A stretch of DNA of 64,000 nucleotides from Conchiformibius steedae. GTDB lineage: Bacteria > Pseudomonadota > Gammaproteobacteria > Burkholderiales > Neisseriaceae. Below the pieces are notes generated by a model. The model saw only the letters and a list, made by a program, of their open reading frames with translations, had not been told where the DNA came from and ran no database searches. Position numbers and translations under genes: made by a program. Where the stretch lies: contig NZ_CP059563.1 of assembly GCF_014054725.1 (NCBI RefSeq), positions 1,949,749 through 2,013,748 of the forward strand. The letters run 5' to 3'. Below, piece by piece: positions 53,893 through 64,000 of the stretch (within the stretch, counting starts at the first letter, position 1; every line of letters begins with the position of its first letter).

Positions 53893-54747
53893 ATGATTGA
53901 TTTTATTCGGGAAAGCCAAGAAGTTATCCGCCAAATCCCCTTGTCGCGCGAATGGCTGTACACCATTATCCTGATTCCCACCATTATTTTGACCAAACTG
54001 GTGCTGCTGCGCCTGCATTTCCGCCAACATCCCGAATTGGAAATTGACGAAAAACGCCGCATTGTGGTGATGGGTCGCAACATTACCTTAATGCTCTGTA
54101 TTTTCGTGCTGTTTTTGGTGTGGGCAACGCAGATTCAAACTTTCGCCCTGTCCATGGTGGCATTGGCGGCGGCAGCGGTGCTGGCATTAAAAGAACTGAT
54201 TATGTGTTTATCAGGCAGCTTGGTGCGCTTTGCCAATAAACAATATTCCGTAGGCGACTACATTGAAATCAACCACATACGCGGGCGCGTGATTGATATT
54301 AACCTATTGAATACTTTGGTGATGCAAATTGGACCGAATCCGCTAATAGGGCGTTTATCAGGCAAAACCGTTTCTTTTCCCAACAGCCTGCTGCTGAGTT
54401 TTCCGCTCTACCGCGACAATATTTTGGGCAGCTATGTGGTGCATATGTTTGATATTCCCGTGCCGATTCATTTGGATTCGGATGCGATTGTGCCGCGCTT
54501 GGAAGCGGTGCTTTTGGAAAAATGTTCGCCCTATATTGATGAAATTTCGGCGCATTTGGAAGCGGTGCAGGTGCAGAAACTGTTTATTACCCCACCCGCA
54601 CAACCCAGCATCAGCCGCGTGCCTTATGATGACAAAGTATATAACTTGGCGGTGCGCTTTGCTGCGCCCGTGGGCTTGCGGGTGGATATTCAACAAGCGG
54701 TATTGGATGAGTTTATTCGGGTACAATACCGTTTGCTAAATCCTTAA
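53893..54747 (+). CDS. MscS-family mechanosensitive channel
   Basis: 284 residues with membrane segments at about 20-37, 60-78 and 83-105; the last is the Ala/Gly-rich pore helix (LSMVALAAAAVLALKELIM). The MscS beta domain follows with FANKQYSVGDYIEINHIRGRVIDINLLNTLVMQ. The C-terminal part (FITPPAQPSISRVPYDD) is shorter than in E. coli MscS. It probably releases solutes on osmotic downshift. The last four bases overlap the end of the convergent Sel1 gene. Confidence 0.88.
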   Translation: MIDFIRESQEVIRQIPLSREWLYTIILIPTIILTKLVLLRLHFRQHPELEIDEKRRIVVMGRNITLMLCIFVLFLVWATQIQTFALSMVALAAAAVLALKELIMCLSGSLVRFANKQYSVGDYIEINHIRGRVIDINLLNTLVMQIGPNPLIGRLSGKTVSFPNSLLLSFPLYRDNILGSYVVHMFDIPVPIHLDSDAIVPRLEAVLLEKCSPYIDEISAHLEAVQVQKLFITPPAQPSISRVPYDDKVYNLAVRFAAPVGLRVDIQQAVLDEFIRVQYRLLNP

Positions 54748-55391
54748 TGACCTTGAGATTTTAAAATTTCCAAGGCTTTTTTAGCATCTTCATGGTTTTG
54801 TGCAGCGGCTTTTTCAAACCATTGGCGTGCTGTTTGGTCGTTTTTCGCCACACCATACCCGTTATAATACAAACTACCAAGCCCATATTGCGCAACAGCA
54901 TGATTTTGCGCAGCGGCTTTTTCATACCATTTACGCGCAGCTTGATAATCTTGCTTTACCCCCCAGCCAAGCGCATATAAACTACCTAGATTATGTTGTG
55001 CAGTAGCATGATTTTGCGCAGCCGCCTTTTCAAACCATTGACGTGCTGTTTGGTAATTTTGTGTTACACCACGCCCATGTACATATAAATTACCCAAATT
55101 ACTTTGTGCGCCAGCATGATTCTGTGCAACAGCTTTTTCAAACCACTGACGCGCAGCTTGATAATTTTGCTTTACGCCCCAGCCATGCTCATACAATATA
55201 CCCAGTGCGTATTGTGCTTCAGCATGATTTTGTGCCGCTGCTTTACTAAACCACTGATAAGCACTTGGATAGTTTTGCCCTACACCCAATCCGTCTTTAT
55301 ACAAAATACCCAATCCAACTTGAGCATCAGAATTACCCTGAGCAGCCGATTTTTCAAACCATTGTCTCGCGGTTTGATAATTTTTTGTTAT
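54744..55391 (-). pseudogene. 5'-truncated Sel1-repeat protein gene
   Basis: Five complete 36-residue Sel1 repeats and part of a sixth are encoded (typical unit YQAARQWFEKAVAQNHAGAQ), ending in LEILKSQGH. The first repeat is entered in the middle, and Sel1 similarity stops at about 55391. The open frame continues to an ATG at 55475, but those 28 codons run through the inverted-repeat end of the prophage and encode no signal peptide. Sel1 proteins are normally exported or scaffold-like, so the true start is missing. The natural 5' part should lie at the far end of the prophage. Confidence 0.7.
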
Positions 55392-55394
55392 AAA

Positions 55395-55461
55395 TTTGCG
55401 CGGATTTTGACACGTTTTTGCGTTAATTTTGTCATACAGCACATGACAAAACAATCGCAAA
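55395..55461. repeat. Three copies of an 18-bp word at the prophage end (transposase-site-like)
   Basis: TTTGCGCGGATTTTGACA (55395-55412), TTTGCGTTAATTTTGTCA (55417-55434) and the inverted TGACAAAACAATCGCAAA (55444-55461) share TTTGCG, four variable bases, TTTTG, A/T, CA. The two direct copies start 22 bp apart, two helical turns, like MuA-binding repeats at Mu ends. The second and third also form a hairpin. Confidence 0.7.
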
Positions 55462-55497
55462 ATTTTAAAGCCCATTGCTCATCTTGGAAAATAAATC

Positions 55498-55619: not shown

Positions 55620-55988
55620 ATGCTGGCTTACAATATTTACAACGGCTTTTGCAAACACCTGTTTGATGTGGGCGTGGAAGTGTACGAAGTACCGTTTGAC
55701 CTTGCCGCCGCCGCGTTGCAAAAGCACCTGCAGGGTGTATCTAAAGCGGAAGCTGCTGCATTTTTGGACGGCTGCGACGGTGGCGATTTTGCTGCCGACT
55801 TATTGTATTATCTGAATGAACAAGGCAGCGGTTATGATTGGGACAAGCCCGATGCACTTGTCTCACTGCAAAGTGCGCTTGACCGCGTTTGTGCTGATTG
55901 GCTGGCAGATGCTGTAAGCCCGCGCCCACGCAGCACGGATTTTTTAAGAACGGCATATCTGGGTTGCCGCAGGTTAATACAGGCATAA
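55620..55988 (+). CDS. Hypothetical prophage protein
   Basis: 122 residues, acidic and soluble, beginning MLAYNIYNGFCKHLFDVGV and containing AAALQKHLQGVSKAEAAAFLDGCDGGDFAADLLYYL. I recognise no family. ATG 55620 has TTAGGGG upstream. It is the only gene between the methylases and the prophage end, is transcribed toward the methylases and has its own strong terminator. A cargo (moron) gene is a reasonable inference. Confidence 0.6.
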   Translation: MLAYNIYNGFCKHLFDVGVEVYEVPFDLAAAALQKHLQGVSKAEAAAFLDGCDGGDFAADLLYYLNEQGSGYDWDKPDALVSLQSALDRVCADWLADAVSPRPRSTDFLRTAYLGCRRLIQA

Positions 55989-56039: not shown

Positions 56040-56870
56040 CTAGAAGCGGTAAACCAAATTATCCTCGTAAACCGCTTGTTGGTTAATATGGGTGGTCAGG
56101 CTGATTTTTTGGTAGTCCTTGAACCTGTCCCAGCCCTCCATCTTATCGCCAATCACCAAATCCAAATACTCAAGTAGCTCGCTGCGCGTTGATGAAAAGA
56201 ACACAAACGGCGGTCGCACCAGCCGCATCAGGCGCAAAAATTGTACCATGCCGAAGTAACCTGCCTTGCGGTAGCTGCCCTGCTGGGTACAGACATAAGG
56301 CGGGTCTAATACCAGCAGGGTTTTGGGGTCGTCCAGGTGCGGCGGAAGCAGCTCGTGATAGGGCTGGCTGACAATCTCAAGCCCGTCTAAATAGTCGGTG
56401 GCATCGGGGTAATCGTGCTGGCGCACGCAGTGGTAAAACTGATGGCTGTATAAATCAGGTAAATCGCGTGCGGTCTTGCCGCTAAACAACAGCCATGCCG
56501 CCAAACAGTCCAAATCCAAGTAACCGCCAAAGCCGTTAATCGCTGCTTCGGCTGCTTTTTTGACCGCATCGGGTAGCCGTTTTTGTCGCGGCTGGTGTTG
56601 AAGCAAATCGGCAAGAATCTGGCGCAGGCGGTTGGTGTCGGGGATATGTGCCAGCCGCTCGGCATAGCCGTCAAAATCATTATAGATAACGCGGGCGGCG
56701 GGCTTGCAGCGTTTGGCGGTGTGGGCGAGTAAGCCGCTGCCGCCAAAGGCATCAATAATGGTCCAGCCTGCACCATCGCCATCTAAATGCTGATTTAATA
56801 GGGATTTAAAGTGGTTTAAAAAGCGGCGTTTTTGCCCTGTGAACGGCAAAGGTGCTTGTGTATATGCCAT
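56040..56870 (-). CDS. D12-class DNA N6-adenine methyltransferase, copy 2 of the prophage
   Basis: 276 residues. Motifs PLPFTGQKRRFLNHF (D12 N-terminal), IDAFGGSGLLAH (SAM binding) and LLVLDPPYV (catalytic DPPY) are in the Dam/D12 order. The middle part is unlike Dam, and the target site cannot be told from sequence. ATG 56870 has an excellent ribosome site (AAGGAGATAT), but an 18-nt motif shared with the other methylase lies 16 bases upstream. It is probably a phage genome-protection enzyme and is last in the com-methylase transcript. Confidence 0.85.
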   Translation of the reverse strand: MAYTQAPLPFTGQKRRFLNHFKSLLNQHLDGDGAGWTIIDAFGGSGLLAHTAKRCKPAARVIYNDFDGYAERLAHIPDTNRLRQILADLLQHQPRQKRLPDAVKKAAEAAINGFGGYLDLDCLAAWLLFSGKTARDLPDLYSHQFYHCVRQHDYPDATDYLDGLEIVSQPYHELLPPHLDDPKTLLVLDPPYVCTQQGSYRKAGYFGMVQFLRLMRLVRPPFVFFSSTRSELLEYLDLVIGDKMEGWDRFKDYQKISLTTHINQQAVYEDNLVYRF

Positions 56871-56886
56871 ATATCTCCTTAATGGC

Positions 56887-56904
56887 GGTACTCACGGCAC
56901 TCTG
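56887..56904 (-). promoter_or_regulatory. Shared 18-nt motif upstream of methylase copy 2
   Basis: GGTACTCACGGCACTCTG (plus strand) differs by one base from the motif before methylase copy 1 and lies at the same 16-base distance from ATG 56870. On the mRNA it can also be read as the end (ECREY) of a 24-codon frame from 56957 whose stop overlaps the methylase ribosome site. Confidence 0.5.
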
Positions 56905-56968
56905 TTGGAAAAACAAACAACCGCCATCGCTGATGACGGTTATCAATAAGCATGATAAAATCTGTCAG

Positions 56969-57769
56969 CTATATATTATTTTTGAACAACGGATAGTTGG
57001 CAATCAGCAGCTCGTTGGCACGCTGGTTGCCGCCGCTGGGTACGCTGTAGCGCAGTTTAACGGGCAGCGTGTGGAAGCCGTCAAATATCTCTCTAATCTG
57101 CGGCACATCGTTGATAGACAGCAGAAATTTACCCTTAATCCCGCGCAATTGGGTTGCCAATGCGCTAAAATCATCACGGCTGAAAATACCCTTGCCGTAT
57201 GCGCCCTCGCAGCCCCAATACGGCGGGTCCACATAGAAAAAGGTATCGTCGGCATCGTAGCGGCGGATAAACTCGCTATACGGTAACCGCTCCAGCATCA
57301 CGCCCTGCAAACGTTGGCGGCTGTCTGTCAGCTCCTGCATCAGCTTTTGTGGGTTGAAGCGTGGCGGACGGTTGCGGCGCGATGCACAGCTCTGCTCTAT
57401 CACGCGCCCACCAAAGCTCAAACGGTGTAAATACAGGAAGCGCACGGCACGCTGTACATCGGTCAGGCTGTCGGGCGGGGTGGCTTGTAGCCGTTGATAC
57501 TCATCGCGGCTGGGCAGCATCTGCTCGGCAAGGCGCAACAGCTCTGGGCTGTGGTTTTGAACCACCCGATAGAGATTGATAATGTCGGCATTGATGTCGT
57601 TTAGGGCTTCGGTGCGGCTGGGGGATTTGTGGAATAGCAACCACGCTGCGCCCGCAAACACCTCTGCATAGCAGTGGTGGGCGGGAATCAAAGGGATTAG
57701 CGTGGAAGTTAAACGGGATTTGCCGCCAAACCAGCCGCGAAGCGGGCTGGCGGGTGGGGAATTAGCCAT
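56969..57769 (-). CDS. D12-class DNA N6-adenine methyltransferase, copy 1 of the prophage
   Basis: 266 residues from ATG 57769 (TAAGGAAACTA upstream). GWFGGKSRL is motif X-like at the N-terminus. EVFAGAAWLLFHK and LNDINADIINLYRVVQ bind SAM, and FFYVDPPYWGCEG holds the catalytic DPPY. It belongs to the same D12 class as copy 2, but the two proteins are too different to be a recent duplication. It follows the com-like gene by 66 bases. In Mu, Com switches on translation of the DNA-modification gene mom; here methylases occupy that position. Confidence 0.88.
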   Translation of the reverse strand: MANSPPASPLRGWFGGKSRLTSTLIPLIPAHHCYAEVFAGAAWLLFHKSPSRTEALNDINADIINLYRVVQNHSPELLRLAEQMLPSRDEYQRLQATPPDSLTDVQRAVRFLYLHRLSFGGRVIEQSCASRRNRPPRFNPQKLMQELTDSRQRLQGVMLERLPYSEFIRRYDADDTFFYVDPPYWGCEGAYGKGIFSRDDFSALATQLRGIKGKFLLSINDVPQIREIFDGFHTLPVKLRYSVPSGGNQRANELLIANYPLFKNNI

Positions 57770-57785
57770 TAGTTTCCTTATTATT

Positions 57786-57829
57786 GGTACTCGCGGCACT
57801 CTGGGTTAAAGGAACTCTGTGGCACTCTG
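57786..57829 (-). promoter_or_regulatory. Shared motif upstream of methylase copy 1 plus a second partial copy
   Basis: GGTACTCGCGGCACTCTG (57786-57803) lies exactly 16 bases before ATG 57769. A related GGAACTCTGTGGCACTCTG (57811-57829) lies next to it. On the mRNA the shared core is CAGAGTGCC. Placement between the com-like gene and the methylase makes a Com-binding or leader-peptide control site the leading guess. Confidence 0.5.
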
Positions 57830-58147: not shown

Positions 58148-59605
58148 TTATGTTTCCTGCTCCAACAAGTGATTGAGGATTTTATCGCGCTCGCCGTGTG
58201 CCATTGCTTCAATCCGCAAGGTTTCGCGGTATTCGGCAGCTTCGGCGGCAAGGGTAAACTGTGCCTGAATACCCAGTTCCGCCAGCTTGTCTTTAAGCTG
58301 TTGCGGGCTGACACGGAAAAACTCTTTACGGTGGTTGACCTTGTTTACACGGGCATCGCTAAAGGCGCGGTGCAGTTGTTTTTCCAGCGCGGGCGCATCG
58401 TCTGAATAAATAATGGCGTGTACGTCAAACAGAAACGGTACGGACGCATCGCCCAGCTCACGCACGCGGTCAAGCGGTTCAAGGCGGCGCGTCATGCCGA
58501 TTTTAACCATGTTTTCGCCAAACGAGCCGATATTGGAAATCAGGTAAACGTGTCCCGCACGGGTTTGTTGCGCCATAGACAGGGCGCGTTGGTTTTTCTC
58601 TTCCGCTTCTTTAAGTTTTTGGCTTAAATCTGCCAGTTGGCTTTCGTATTGGGCGCGTTGTTCGGCGGTGGCGCGTTCCAATTCAGCGCGGGCTTTGTCC
58701 ATTGCTTTTTGCAGCATGGACTCTTCTTTGGCGGCATCGCGCATGGCTTTTTCGTATTCTTTACGGGCGCGTTCTTCTTCGCGTGCCTGTTCGCGGATGG
58801 CGCGTTGCTGTTCGCGCTCTTCCGTGCGTAGCGTGTGCAATACGCTTGCCCACTTTAATTCTTCTTGGCGCAGTTGGTAGTAATCTTTACGCACCGCACC
58901 AGCAAAAGCGGCGGCTTTAGCGTGGTATTCGGTCAGCGCGTAAATATCTGCCAGTTCTTGTTTGAGTTTGCCGTAGTTTTCGTGTTTGACTTCGGCAAGC
59001 AGTTGTTCGGCTTTGGTATTGAAAAAATCCAGCAATACTTTGGAAACAGCGGCATCGCCTGATGTGGCATTGCCTGACTGAATGCTGTCGCGCACTTGTT
59101 TGCGGCAGGTTTTCAGCTTTTCGCCTGCGTTGTGGATACTGTATTCTTGGGCGATGTCGTCAATCAGTTGCACGGACGGAATCAGATACTGGTCGCCGTA
59201 ACCGTTGATGCGCCGTTGTATGGCTTGTTCGGCTTGGCGTGTGGCAGATAAGCTGCGCTGGGCTTCGGCTTTGGCTGCTTCCAATTTGGCTTGTGCGGCA
59301 TTTAGTTGTTGTTGGATTTGACGTTGTTTTTCCGATAATTTGTTTTGTTGTGCAGCATATTTGTCCTGCTGTTTTTTCTCGCGCTCTGTCTGTTCGGTTC
59401 GCCATGCTTTGCGTTCATCTTCCAGTTTGCGTTTTTCCGCATCAGCTTCGGCAATCATGGCTTGCTTTTCCTGATGCAGTTTTTTGTTTAATGCGTCCAG
59501 TTTTTCCTGATTGTTTTTAAAGTTCTTTTTGCCCTGAATATACACACCCGCAAAGAACATACCCAACAACAAACCTGCAACAATAATCAACTTAATCCAT
59601 GCCAT
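58148..59605 (-). CDS. Membrane-anchored coiled-coil protein with DUF4041 and T5orf172 (GIY-YIG) domains
   Basis: 485 residues. One N-terminal membrane helix (about 4-24, LIIVAGLLLGMFFAGVYI) is followed by a long charged coiled coil (about 28-130) and a helical DUF4041-like core (about 140-265). A second coiled coil (about 265-350) follows. The T5orf172/GIY-YIG-like domain starts GHVYLISNIGSF.ENMVKIGMT near residue 357 and continues through RVRELGDASVP and the Glu-containing DDAPALEKQLHRAF to the Arg-Glu-Phe-Phe end. Such proteins are frequent prophage cargo. Nuclease activity, and a role in excluding other phages at the membrane, are inference. Confidence 0.85.
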   Translation of the reverse strand: MAWIKLIIVAGLLLGMFFAGVYIQGKKNFKNNQEKLDALNKKLHQEKQAMIAEADAEKRKLEDERKAWRTEQTEREKKQQDKYAAQQNKLSEKQRQIQQQLNAAQAKLEAAKAEAQRSLSATRQAEQAIQRRINGYGDQYLIPSVQLIDDIAQEYSIHNAGEKLKTCRKQVRDSIQSGNATSGDAAVSKVLLDFFNTKAEQLLAEVKHENYGKLKQELADIYALTEYHAKAAAFAGAVRKDYYQLRQEELKWASVLHTLRTEEREQQRAIREQAREEERARKEYEKAMRDAAKEESMLQKAMDKARAELERATAEQRAQYESQLADLSQKLKEAEEKNQRALSMAQQTRAGHVYLISNIGSFGENMVKIGMTRRLEPLDRVRELGDASVPFLFDVHAIIYSDDAPALEKQLHRAFSDARVNKVNHRKEFFRVSPQQLKDKLAELGIQAQFTLAAEAAEYRETLRIEAMAHGERDKILNHLLEQET

Positions 59606-59921: not shown

Positions 59922-61688
59922 TTAATCTCCCATGTAACGGTCAATGGTTAAGGTTTGATAGACAGTGGGCGCATCGTTTTGCACGCTGGCAGAGATGCTA
60001 ATCCCCGTAATCACGCCGCGCCATGTGCCGCCTGCTTCGGCGAAACCCCACAACTCGCCCAAACCTGCCCGATGCAGCCCGTATTTGGGCATTAGCGGCA
60101 GTTTGACGGTCTCTATTTTGTGTGTGCCTGTATCGCTTAATGCGGCGATGCCCGCAGCACGGCAGACGTTTTGCGCGGCATACAGCGGATGGGTTTGCGC
60201 GGCGGTGCGCGGGGTGCTGTCTGTACCGTCACGGCGCACCAACGCGGCATAGCCTTGTGCATGGGTTGCCCATACTTCCGCGCCGTTGCAGCGGGCAGAA
60301 ACGCGCACTTGCCCGCTAATGGATAATATTGCGCTATCAGGCACTTGCACTTTGGGGGCAATCTCGCGCAACAACCATGCGGGTGCTGACCAGCGTTTTT
60401 TGAGGCTGATTTGTGGTAATTCGGGGTGGCTTTCTACGAAACCGCCTGCGGTGGTGGCAATTTCGGAAATCACTGCCATTGGCGTTTTGTCCGACAAGGC
60501 ATATACGCCCGCTGGAATCAGCCAATCGGCGATTTCCCAATTTGATATTTTGACCCCTGTAAACTCAAGCTGTTGCGCGGCAATTTGGCGGGCGTACAGA
60601 TTGGGGGCAATGCCTTGATTAACAGGCGCATAATCCGCGCCTAATAAGGCGGTTACGCTGCGCCCCGTTACGGTGTAGGTTTTGCGCCCGAATACGCGGT
60701 TATCGCCCCATTGCTCTGCCATGATGCGCCATGTTTCGCCGTTGATGTTGATGTCAATCAGCGGCGCATCGCCGTGGGCGCGGCTGGACAGGTTTAAGCG
60801 GGCAAACTCATCAGGCGGTAGGGTCAGGTTGCCTTGCCAGCAGTAACCGCCCATATCTGCGCGGATTTCAGCGGCAATCAGGTCTAAAGGCTTGCCGTCA
60901 AAGCTGGCAGAGATATGATTTTGCATAATATAACTGTCTCGCGGTGGAATTTCCGTGGATGTCTGCCCACAGGCAAACGGCAGCGGGATTTGCGCGGCAT
61001 CGGGCATCATGCGGCGGCGCAGGAACGGTATCGGCAGATGCCCCGCATCGGGGCGCGGGCAACGGCGGCGGCGTGGCGGGTCGGGACGCTCAATCACGAT
61101 TTCGCGCCATTCGCACGGCGGTTGCGTGCTGGGGCTGGTGGTGGTGCGGGCGCAGGAAACCACGTCTGCGCCGTGCTGGTGTGCTTGGGCGCAGCCTTTG
61201 ACACCCGCTGCCGTGCCTGTTTGTGTGTTGATGCAGCCGTGGCGCGGTAATACTGCTGTTGTTTCCACCGCAGCACAGGATAGGCGCGGTGCGCCCGCTG
61301 TGTTGCCTGTATCAGCACAATGGCGTACATCGGCGAACACATCAGCCAGCAGCTTGGCGCAGGCAGACAGGTCAAACGGTACACGCCAGTTTGCCTGTGT
61401 TTCGTGGTACAGCTGTGCGAACACGGCAGACGGCAGGAAGCTGCACGACACCGCGTCCGCTGCCTCGCCCCAATTATGGCGATGCTCGGCTGCGGTACTT
61501 GCGCCTTGCCAATGGGCGTTTGCGCCGCCTGCATCGCTTTTGCCGTGCGCCCACGCCACACCCCAACAGGCAGACACGATGGGCGGCTGCGGTTTGGGTT
61601 TGGGCGTGGCATCATCGCGCTTGCCGAAGGGTATCGGTAACGTATCGGCGGCGTGGTGGCGGGTGGTATGGCTGAAACGGATGTACAT
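59922..61688 (-). CDS. Phage tail-tip protein with Cys-rich, repeat-like N-terminus
   Basis: 588 residues. The N-terminal 270 are low in hydrophobic core. They contain about ten cysteines and the recurring phrase P-I/L-P-F at about residues 18, 218 and 237 (LPIPFGKRDD; LPIPFLRRRM; IPLPFACGQ). The C-terminal 310 form a structured domain (SASFDGKPLDLIAAEIRAD; TYTVTGRSVTALLGADYAP) seen in tail proteins of B3/D3112-type and related phages. It probably lies at the tail tip. The end YMGD overlaps the ribosome site of the next gene. Confidence 0.7.
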   Translation of the reverse strand: MYIRFSHTTRHHAADTLPIPFGKRDDATPKPKPQPPIVSACWGVAWAHGKSDAGGANAHWQGASTAAEHRHNWGEAADAVSCSFLPSAVFAQLYHETQANWRVPFDLSACAKLLADVFADVRHCADTGNTAGAPRLSCAAVETTAVLPRHGCINTQTGTAAGVKGCAQAHQHGADVVSCARTTTSPSTQPPCEWREIVIERPDPPRRRRCPRPDAGHLPIPFLRRRMMPDAAQIPLPFACGQTSTEIPPRDSYIMQNHISASFDGKPLDLIAAEIRADMGGYCWQGNLTLPPDEFARLNLSSRAHGDAPLIDININGETWRIMAEQWGDNRVFGRKTYTVTGRSVTALLGADYAPVNQGIAPNLYARQIAAQQLEFTGVKISNWEIADWLIPAGVYALSDKTPMAVISEIATTAGGFVESHPELPQISLKKRWSAPAWLLREIAPKVQVPDSAILSISGQVRVSARCNGAEVWATHAQGYAALVRRDGTDSTPRTAAQTHPLYAAQNVCRAAGIAALSDTGTHKIETVKLPLMPKYGLHRAGLGELWGFAEAGGTWRGVITGISISASVQNDAPTVYQTLTIDRYMGD

Positions 61689-61690
61689 GG

Positions 61691-62047
61691 CTAACCACTA
61701 TCCACTTTGGGGCGCACAAAATCATACGCCACTGGCTCGTACTCGCCCTTGTAATCCCGCGCTAACAGCAGATAATCGCGGCGGTGGTCAAGATGGCTCA
61801 AGCGGTATGTGCCGTCTGCCGCGCTCCAAGTGCTGCGGACACAGCGCATACTGGCGCAGTCGTACAGGTAGATTTTGCGGCGGGCAGGTATGCCGTTTAC
61901 GGTAACAATGCCCGCACCCGTCCCCGCAATATAGCCCTTGCCCGAATAACGGCTGCTCACCGCCGCACGGCGCGGCAGGCGCAAACTGATATTGATGCGG
62001 CGCGGCGGACGGGTACGCAGCGGACGGCGGGTAATCAGCAGGTTCAT
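61691..62047 (-). CDS. Phage tail-module protein with carboxypeptidase-regulatory-like fold
   Basis: 118 residues. A basic N-terminus (RRPLRTRPPRRINISLRLPRR) is followed by a beta-rich stretch GIVTVNGIPARRKIYLYDCASM and SAADGTYRLSHLDHRRDYLLLARDY. That is the pattern of small Ig/carboxypeptidase-regulatory domains in tail-tip gene blocks. Its ATG overlaps the preceding stop by one base, and two bases separate it from the next gene, so the module is translated as a tight unit. Confidence 0.65.
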   Translation of the reverse strand: MNLLITRRPLRTRPPRRINISLRLPRRAAVSSRYSGKGYIAGTGAGIVTVNGIPARRKIYLYDCASMRCVRSTWSAADGTYRLSHLDHRRDYLLLARDYKGEYEPVAYDFVRPKVDSG

Positions 62048-62970
62048 CAGGACTCCCAGTGGCTGACATTGAGCAGGTAATAACCGCGCTCTTGGTCGCC
62101 CGCGTTAAACTTGAGATACACATCATCTGTGCCATCAATCACAATCGGCGAACCGTCATGCACAATCCGCAAATTATTGTGTGCCTTAAACCAGCCGGGC
62201 ATCAGTCCGCGCAGGCTGTAACGCTCGCGGACGGTTTCTTCCGCCAAATAAATCTCTGAAGCCAATGTACCGCCGCTAATCACATCGGGATAGTCGGCGT
62301 TTGCCGCTGCAAAACCCAAACTGTGCAGCAGCACGCCCGCTTCTGTTTCCGTATTGCCCCAAGTCCGCGCCATGCGTGCGCTGTTGCCGTAGGTGGTGGT
62401 CAATGCACGCAAATTGCCGTTAGACAAATAATCGTAACCGTCATAATGGCTGGATACAAACAGCGTATTGCCCGTGTCATCAGGTATCAGACTGGGGACA
62501 TCGCCAAAAAAGAACATGGAGCAACCGTTGGTTTTGTAATAGTCGCCCATCGCGCCCACAATCAGGGTAAAGGCTTTGTCATGCCCAATTAACCACCAGC
62601 GGTCAGTGTTGTTTACATCCCGCTCAACATAGCCGAAACGGTCGTAGTTATTACTACGGTCACGCCCAAAATAGCCCGTTCCCGCATCAATGCCCGTCAT
62701 CTCGCGGTAGGGGTGCAGACGCACCGAGCGGGTGCTGCTGTTATCTACGCGCAAATAATGGCGGTTGCTTTCGCCCGATGCGCTGCGAAACACGGCTACA
62801 TTGGGCGTTTCAAAGGGCATATCCCAGCCCAAAGCGCGTTTTTCGCCATAACCTGATACCAAACAGGCTTTTAATACGGTTTTAAGGCTGCCAGCGGATG
62901 CGCTTAATTGGGGTGCGCCGTTGTCTTTTGACGAGAATAAAGTAACGGGTTTTAAAGTGGTTTGAATCAT
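62047..62970 (-). CDS. Phage virion structural protein of the tail-tip module
   Basis: 307 residues from ATG 62970 (GGATAAG upstream); an earlier ATG at 63042 adds an unlikely hydrophobic stretch. SAGSLKTVLKACLVSGYGEKRALGWD near the N-terminus and HYLRVDNSSTRSVRLHPYREMTGID match a conserved phage protein found next to the tail-tip gene in transposable and other siphophages. No enzymatic motif is seen. The exact position in the virion is unknown. Confidence 0.65.
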   Translation of the reverse strand: MIQTTLKPVTLFSSKDNGAPQLSASAGSLKTVLKACLVSGYGEKRALGWDMPFETPNVAVFRSASGESNRHYLRVDNSSTRSVRLHPYREMTGIDAGTGYFGRDRSNNYDRFGYVERDVNNTDRWWLIGHDKAFTLIVGAMGDYYKTNGCSMFFFGDVPSLIPDDTGNTLFVSSHYDGYDYLSNGNLRALTTTYGNSARMARTWGNTETEAGVLLHSLGFAAANADYPDVISGGTLASEIYLAEETVRERYSLRGLMPGWFKAHNNLRIVHDGSPIVIDGTDDVYLKFNAGDQERGYYLLNVSHWES

Positions 62971-63031
62971 TTTGCTTATCCAAATCAAGTAATGATGAAG
63001 TAATATATAGGTTTCAAATGGAGTTTGACTG

Positions 63032-63265
63032 ATGCACGACATTCAAAAGCAACAACATATTGCTTTATGTTTAACCAAAATACTGTTACGGCATCACCCC
63101 GAATATATTTTTGGCTCATTAAGCGGGGAACATACAGAAAACGACCAAGCCCATCGGCTGGCGCAATTTTGTCAAACGTTGTCGCAAGAATTAAATATGT
63201 TTAATCAGCTGCAATCTGATGATGTGAATAAGATTTTTCACAATCCCAATCAGTATGTTGATTAA
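63032..63265 (+). CDS. Hypothetical prophage protein on the opposite strand
   Basis: 77 residues (MHDIQKQQHIALCLTKILLR to NKIFHNPNQYVD), polar and helical, with GGAG nine bases before ATG. It points against the tail module and overlaps the end of the 63201-63383 gene by 65 bases. Composition is more protein-like and A/T-richer than its neighbours, which fits a phage cargo gene. No family recognised. Confidence 0.5.
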   Translation: MHDIQKQQHIALCLTKILLRHHPEYIFGSLSGEHTENDQAHRLAQFCQTLSQELNMFNQLQSDDVNKIFHNPNQYVD

Positions 63266-63386: not shown

Positions 63387-64000
63387 TTATTCCTTGTTTA
63401 AGATTTCCGTGTTGCCGCGCAAACATACGGTCACACCATCATTTTCAGCTTGTTTTTCGGTGGACGGCTGCACCACACGCAGCAGCCATACCGCTAAAAT
63501 CGTGCCGCTGGTATTGAAACGGATACAGTTACCCGCCCGCCAGCCACCACCAAATGCCAAATGTGGCAAGGTAAAATACGGCTTGCCCGTGGCGGGATTA
63601 ACGGGGGCAAGGTCGTTAAGCGTATCCGATTGCAGCACCAAACCCAGCTGCTCGCCGTACAGGTCAAACTGGGTGTCGGATTTGAAGCGAATCAGCCAAC
63701 GCTCGGTAATTGCGCCATCGGCGGTTAATGCCATTGGGTAATCCTTAACATTGACACGGCTTAACAGCGCGTCGCCTTCTCTGATTTCTTGCCATCTGCC
63801 GCGCCATGCGTCTTGGGCAAACGGCTCGGTGGCGCGGACTTGTAAGTCGCCGCCCAGTACCGCGCTGGATACATGGGTGTTTTCCTGCGGCCAGTCGCGG
63901 GATAAAGCGTTTTGCAACTTGATTTCGCCGCTGATGTCTGTGGCGCGGATGCGGTTATGCTCTTCCCACACACAGCACGCCGTTAAGGGCATTTTGTAGC
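63387..64000 (-). CDS. Phage tail-module protein (5' part outside window)
   Basis: At least 204 residues. The frame stays open past an internal Met at 63992 to the window edge. DGAITERWLIRFKSDTQFD, APVNPATGKPYFTLP and AFGGGWRAGNCIRFNTSG are a conserved block in tail proteins of transposable siphophages, usually encoded just before the two proteins seen downstream here. It is the first visible gene of the minus-strand tail unit. Confidence 0.65.
   Translation of the reverse strand, partial: YKMPLTACCVWEEHNRIRATDISGEIKLQNALSRDWPQENTHVSSAVLGGDLQVRATEPFAQDAWRGRWQEIREGDALLSRVNVKDYPMALTADGAITERWLIRFKSDTQFDLYGEQLGLVLQSDTLNDLAPVNPATGKPYFTLPHLAFGGGWRAGNCIRFNTSGTILAVWLLRVVQPSTEKQAENDGVTVCLRGNTEILNKE

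Follow-up and report, generated by a model that had tools for sequence, protein, structure and literature searches.

The prophage and its gene content

The window (the whole 64,000-nucleotide stretch of Conchiformibius steedae DNA that was analysed) contains the right end of a transposable prophage, which begins at position 55389 and runs through position 64000 and on to G000:C3:2046384 (contig C3 of the host genome, G000), 41,248 bp in total. It adjoins the 3′ part of a Sel1-repeat gene (54744–55388, minus strand; Pfam Sel1, E = 1.3e-59), whose 5′ part (L011:10386–10687, minus strand; L011 is the locus of the left prophage end) lies 41 kb away, directly past the far end of the prophage. The phage DNA opens with the terminal dinucleotide TA (55389–55390, plus strand), TG in canonical relatives, as determined by a comparison of the right ends of 11 elements. 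Three putative transposase sites follow, recognized by a pattern scan and by the same comparison: R1 (55395–55412, plus strand; TTTTGACA core from phage base 17), R2 (55417–55434, plus strand; 22 bp after R1, core from base 39), and a third, inverted site (55444–55461, minus strand) whose placement differs among relatives.

Further inward, a 122-aa ORF without a family match (55620–55988, plus strand) is followed, all on the minus strand, by two D12-class N6-adenine DNA methyltransferase genes (56040–56870 and 56969–57799), a phage gene with a T5orf172/MUG113 domain (58148–59605), a tail protein gene (59922–61688; phrog_6079, E = 4e-77), and a tail assembly protein gene (62047–63042; phrog_9600, E = 2e-40). 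The two methyltransferase genes stand side by side at the right end of the prophage (56040–57799). The product of 58148–59605 comprises 485 aa; its N-terminal part weakly matches Rz-like spanins, and the C-terminal part is the T5orf172/MUG113 domain.

The prophage, about 91% of which is covered by mechanically called ORFs, also encodes a Gam-like protein, an HU-like protein, a late activator, an endolysin, and an Rz-like spanin, as well as head and packaging proteins (terminase, portal, minor head protein, head protease) and tail proteins (major tail protein, tape measure, tail proteins). Its left end adjoins a repressor gene, an HTH gene, and the transposase/ATPase operon; the outward order in L011 is the minus-strand transposase operon, the divergent S24-type repressor, the repeat, and the 5′ part of the Sel1 gene. 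The transposase (L011:6704–8821) bears the Pfam domain Mu-transpos_C, matches the PHROG transposase family with E = 1e-145, and has a frame without a stop; the nearest solved structures are MuA and TnsB. The partner ATPase is 53% identical to the DMS3 transposition protein. The N-terminal part of the repressor (L011:9484–9663) resembles the N-terminus of the transposase (42% over 61 aa), which suggests that both proteins have the same kind of predicted DNA-binding domain, as their Mu counterparts do. The stretch from the repressor gene to the phage tip contains a long inverted repeat, AAAACCGCGCAAAA..TTTTGCGCGGTTTT (L011:10232–10278), that overlaps the inner left-end site; relatives appear to keep its pairing despite changed bases.

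The repeated end sites

The first-pass annotation of the window had described three copies of TTTGCG-N4-TTTTG(A/T)CA, two direct with a 22-bp period and one inverted. A pattern scan with TTTGCG-N4-TTTTGWCA finds all three as exact copies, at the positions and on the strands given above for R1, R2, and the third site; the remaining matches within the window carry 2–3 mismatches, and the number of such matches falls inside the range for shuffled sequences. The whole 2.2-Mb genome holds one additional exact 18-mer, at G000:C3:2046226–2046243 (minus strand), 41 kb off and inside the opposite end of the prophage, where a matching repeat had been predicted. With two mismatches or fewer allowed, 48/49 matches are counted genome-wide versus 47/60 for a reversed-pattern control; there is no excess, and hence only the exact 18-mers stand out. 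Three copies in the window and a single one at the far end mean that the repeats are real and specific to two places; likening them to transposase sites was correct.

Eleven right ends were aligned from the tip. The sites of DMS3 did not fit the simple pattern; in the other ten right ends, the first core begins at base 17 or 18, and in all of these but G481 and G483 a second core was scored at base 39 or 40, 22 bp beyond the first. The Neisseriaceae elements have an inverted third site as well, at a variable distance. Given the conserved core positions, the direct repeats with the 22-bp period are R1 and R2, and the inverted copy is the third site; the distance of R1 and R2 from the tip and their 22-bp spacing are those of the first right-end sites in most relatives compared. 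P. aeruginosa members carry three 22-bp putative sites per end (PMC4378225). R1, R2, and the third site would each be bound by the transposase, to judge by their sequence.

The split Sel1 gene and the target-site duplication

The 5′ part of the Sel1 gene, an ORF on the minus strand, starts like a signal peptide and contains the first Sel1 repeat. The minus-strand ORF of the window is made up of Sel1 repeats right to the junction, and the similarity stops at 55388, six bases ahead of the first 18-mer, which bears out the earlier remark that it halts within a few bases of the repeats. Comparison of the flanks revealed the 5-bp target-site duplication TTTGT, at 55384–55388 and at L011:10386–10390. 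Fused over a single TTTGT, the flanks form one uninterrupted Sel1 frame of 316 codons with GLGVT/KNYQTARQW at the join (marked by the slash); the joined frame reads YLKGLGVTKNYQTARQWFEKSAAQ there and matches other repeats in the same protein, e.g., GVTQNYQTARQWFEK. Thus, the proposal that a prophage end cuts the Sel1 gene was correct: the two parts lie on either side, joining them restores the frame, and the 5′ part that was to be sought past the window adjoins the far prophage tip. The expected 5-bp direct repeat also exists at both ends, at 55384–55388 and not just left of 55386. Among the relatives searched, no uninterrupted copy of the split gene was found (in the only congener, the genes neighbouring Sel1 sit on separate contigs), so the empty site is deduced from the frame and the repeat similarity and not from a second allele.

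Just past the Sel1 start there is a run of nine G (L011:10660–10668; nine C on the coding strand), and slippage in this tract might switch the gene on and off.

Relationship to DMS3/D3112-type phages

Several features of the Mu superfamily are present: a MuA-family DDE transposase with its partner ATPase, a 5-bp duplication (TTTGT, within the Sel1 gene), and repeated putative transposase sites at both ends. The TG..CA tips are absent, with TA at both tips instead; since exceptions have been published for Leptospira (see below), TG..CA is regarded as conserved but not strictly defining for the superfamily. Of the features of the DMS3/D3112 group, the transposase, the ATPase, and the left-end motif are found. 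All complete members of that group examined have 5′-TGT at both tips (PMC4378225); the window prophage has no such tips and is therefore classed as a relative of the group, not as a member.

The nearest transposases among GenBank phages are of the DMS3 type (42%). With the DMS3/D3112 group (Casadabanvirus), the window prophage shares the left-end gene order, the transposase (41–42%), the ATPase (53%), the right-end register, and the left-end motif TGTGGGG-N-RGTG, while DMS3 differs in its TG..CA tips, its host, and its sequence. With phage Mu, it has in common the MuA-type DDE transposase superfamily, several sites per end, and the 5-bp duplication, but the transposase similarity is only short and weak (23% over 131 aa), and the Mu tips are canonical TG..CA. 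The initial description of the locus as the end of a Mu-like prophage in a neisserial host therefore stands as regards a transposable prophage in Neisseriaceae, whereas the kinship is with DMS3/D3112-type siphophages, distant from Mu itself. Closer still are Neisseriaceae prophages in G076, G057 (Neisseria sp. 83E34), and G044, with transposases 62–68% identical and the same left-end motif; in G076 and G044, whose right ends were found, the right-end site register is shared as well. Unlike the window prophage, all three have TG at the left tip, and G076 and G044 have TG..CA at both tips.

It is very probable that a Neisseriaceae Sel1-repeat gene was the target of a transposable phage of the DMS3/D3112 type, which entered it through strand transfer by a DDE transposase, with a 5-bp stagger that duplicated TTTGT. 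The sequence itself shows where the two ends lie, that TTTGT is duplicated and the Sel1 gene split, that the site spacing is conserved, and that both tips are TA. That the insertion is not a phage, or is a prophage of the ordinary integrase kind, is scarcely conceivable: nothing was found in favour of either, and both are refuted by the MuA-family transposase, the 5-bp duplication inside a gene, and the junction without a tRNA.

Terminal dinucleotides

A TG at 55386 had been put forward as the phage terminus. This TG lies in the host duplication TTTGT, and the phage starts at 55389 with TATAAA. Canonical TG..CA tips with the terminus at 55386 would agree with the TG itself and with a CA at the far end (CCCCA followed by TATTT), but are very improbable, because the candidate duplications would then be TTTTT and TATTT, which are unequal, and the fused Sel1 gene would be frame-shifted; these two points refute a terminus at 55386. 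Moreover, the first site core of the relatives lies at base 17–18 counted from 55389, not from 55386.

At both ends, the tip register was fixed by alignment and by the duplications. In the window prophage, where TTTGT is duplicated, the left tip reads TATGGGG and the right tip TATAAA; the Neisseriaceae element G004 (transposase 54% identical) has the same two tips, TATGGGG and TATAAA, and its own duplication, CATGT. The left end is TATGGGGTAGTG in both, versus TGTGGGG in canonical relatives and in DMS3. Base 2 of the right end is A in these two elements and G in the other nine of the 11 right ends, and base 1 is T in every element compared.

TG..CA tips are found in G076, where TCCGC is duplicated and the prophage is inserted exactly in a CRISPR spacer, which fixes the register; in G044, on contig 4 (CTTTT duplicated) and contig 10 (ACAGG duplicated); and in the IMG/VR records G477, G479, G481, G483, and G485, all with matching duplications. 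The Mu, B3, and DMS3 records have TG at the start of both ends. The two G076 prophage ends (L079:5415–5419 and L080:8693–8697) lie within a spacer of a long CRISPR array.

The left tip is TA in G082, next to a truncated transposase, and in the IMG/VR records G470, G475, and G476 (transposases 41–43% identical). In G475, a metagenome record, a TA left tip is combined with a CA right tip and the flanks are unlike, which is possible in metagenome or virion DNA; given this CA, mixed tips may occur. A search by duplication and sites did not find the right ends of G057, G090, G003, and G082, and those of G470 and G476 were not found either. TA at both tips is duplication-proven in two elements only, the window prophage and G004. 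The left-end pattern with TA also fits G471 and G472; with no transposase found near them, they are probably chance matches; a looser scan of IMG/VR for the TA pattern gave more than 120 mostly unselected matches, which were set aside.

The G004 element is 22.9 kb long, shorter than its relatives, and is probably internally deleted. The same probably holds for other shortened relatives: like G004 (L081/L087), the elements on G044 contig 4 (L086/L090, ~7 kb) and contig 10 (L156, ~3.2 kb) retain both tips and a matching 5-bp duplication.

Origin of the TA tips

The insertion most likely took place by the usual strand transfer of the Mu type, with a stagger of 5 bp. MuA-type strand transfer with a 5-bp staggered cut would have duplicated TTTGT and split the Sel1 gene, acting on a right end (55389 inward) with putative sites R1 and R2 in direct orientation 22 bp apart and the third site inverted, and on a left end 41.2 kb away. 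We infer that the transposase would join ends whose transferred strand finishes in TA-3′, not CA-3′, and that the prophage may still be able to transpose.

With somewhat less than an even chance of being right, it is tentatively proposed that transposases of the DMS3-type lineage repeatedly switched from TG..CA to TA..TA, both tips in concert, and that sister enzymes (54–68% identical) differ in end preference. If true, natural sister enzymes can reveal the residues that read the terminal base pair. Mapped on the transposase tree, the TA label requires four changes, of which supported branches force three or more, and its clustering is not significant. Such recurrence also suits a reading that comes close to an even chance and competes with the concerted switch, not with the identity of the element, namely that TA tips are merely tolerated: the transposase would take TG or TA, and the tips would drift with no matching change in the enzyme. 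The mixed tips of G475 (TA left, CA right) point the same way, as does the first base T, kept in all elements; a terminal T reportedly specifies stable transpososome assembly. In addition, the TA and TG types are not cleanly told apart by any residue of the transposase. At Y546 and G107 (numbering of the window phage transposase), 24 TG types show no variation and some TA types vary; but among 500 random label sets, two attained the best contrast, and one clade accounts for three of the rows that vary, so the two residues are only a lead. Against mere tolerance, both tips are TA in both duplication-checked TA elements, and all other duplication-checked elements have TG..CA at both tips.

It is improbable that the prophage integrated with TG..CA tips that both later decayed to TA, leaving a locked fossil. 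G-to-A is a common transition, and some Neisseriaceae copies are shortened remnants; however, two distinct elements, inserted at different sites, would each need this same change at both tips, as would G082 and three IMG/VR records at the left tip, and the 41-kb element is mostly coding, with the main gene modules present and a transposase frame without a stop.

The Leptospira precedent

TG..CA has been described as conserved in Mu-like phages and used to locate their ends (PMC4378225), and every Mu and B3-like element described before a study of Leptospira had kept TG-CA; in that study, 28 of the 74 complete prophages, all of one clade, had TA at each end and 6-bp duplications (PMC8705779). 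The authors left open whether TA-TA prophages exist in other bacteria (PMC8705779). In the limited set of literature searched, no other report of TA-TA ends was found; on that basis, TA-TA ends occur for a second time in the window prophage, whose lineage is of the DMS3 type and has duplications of 5 bp. It resembles the Leptospira prophages (WETA1 group, PMC8705779) in having TA at both tips of a Mu/B3-like transposable prophage, and differs in that theirs have a 6-bp duplication and belong to one Leptospira clade, while the window prophage has a 5-bp one and belongs to the DMS3-type lineage.

The question of the Leptospira authors is thus answered in the affirmative, for an unrelated host group and with a 5-bp instead of a 6-bp duplication. 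The existence of TG..CA sisters in the same bacterial family makes the role of the terminal base pair testable by exchanging ends and enzymes. Programs that require TGT to find prophage ends will overlook or misplace TA-tipped prophages.
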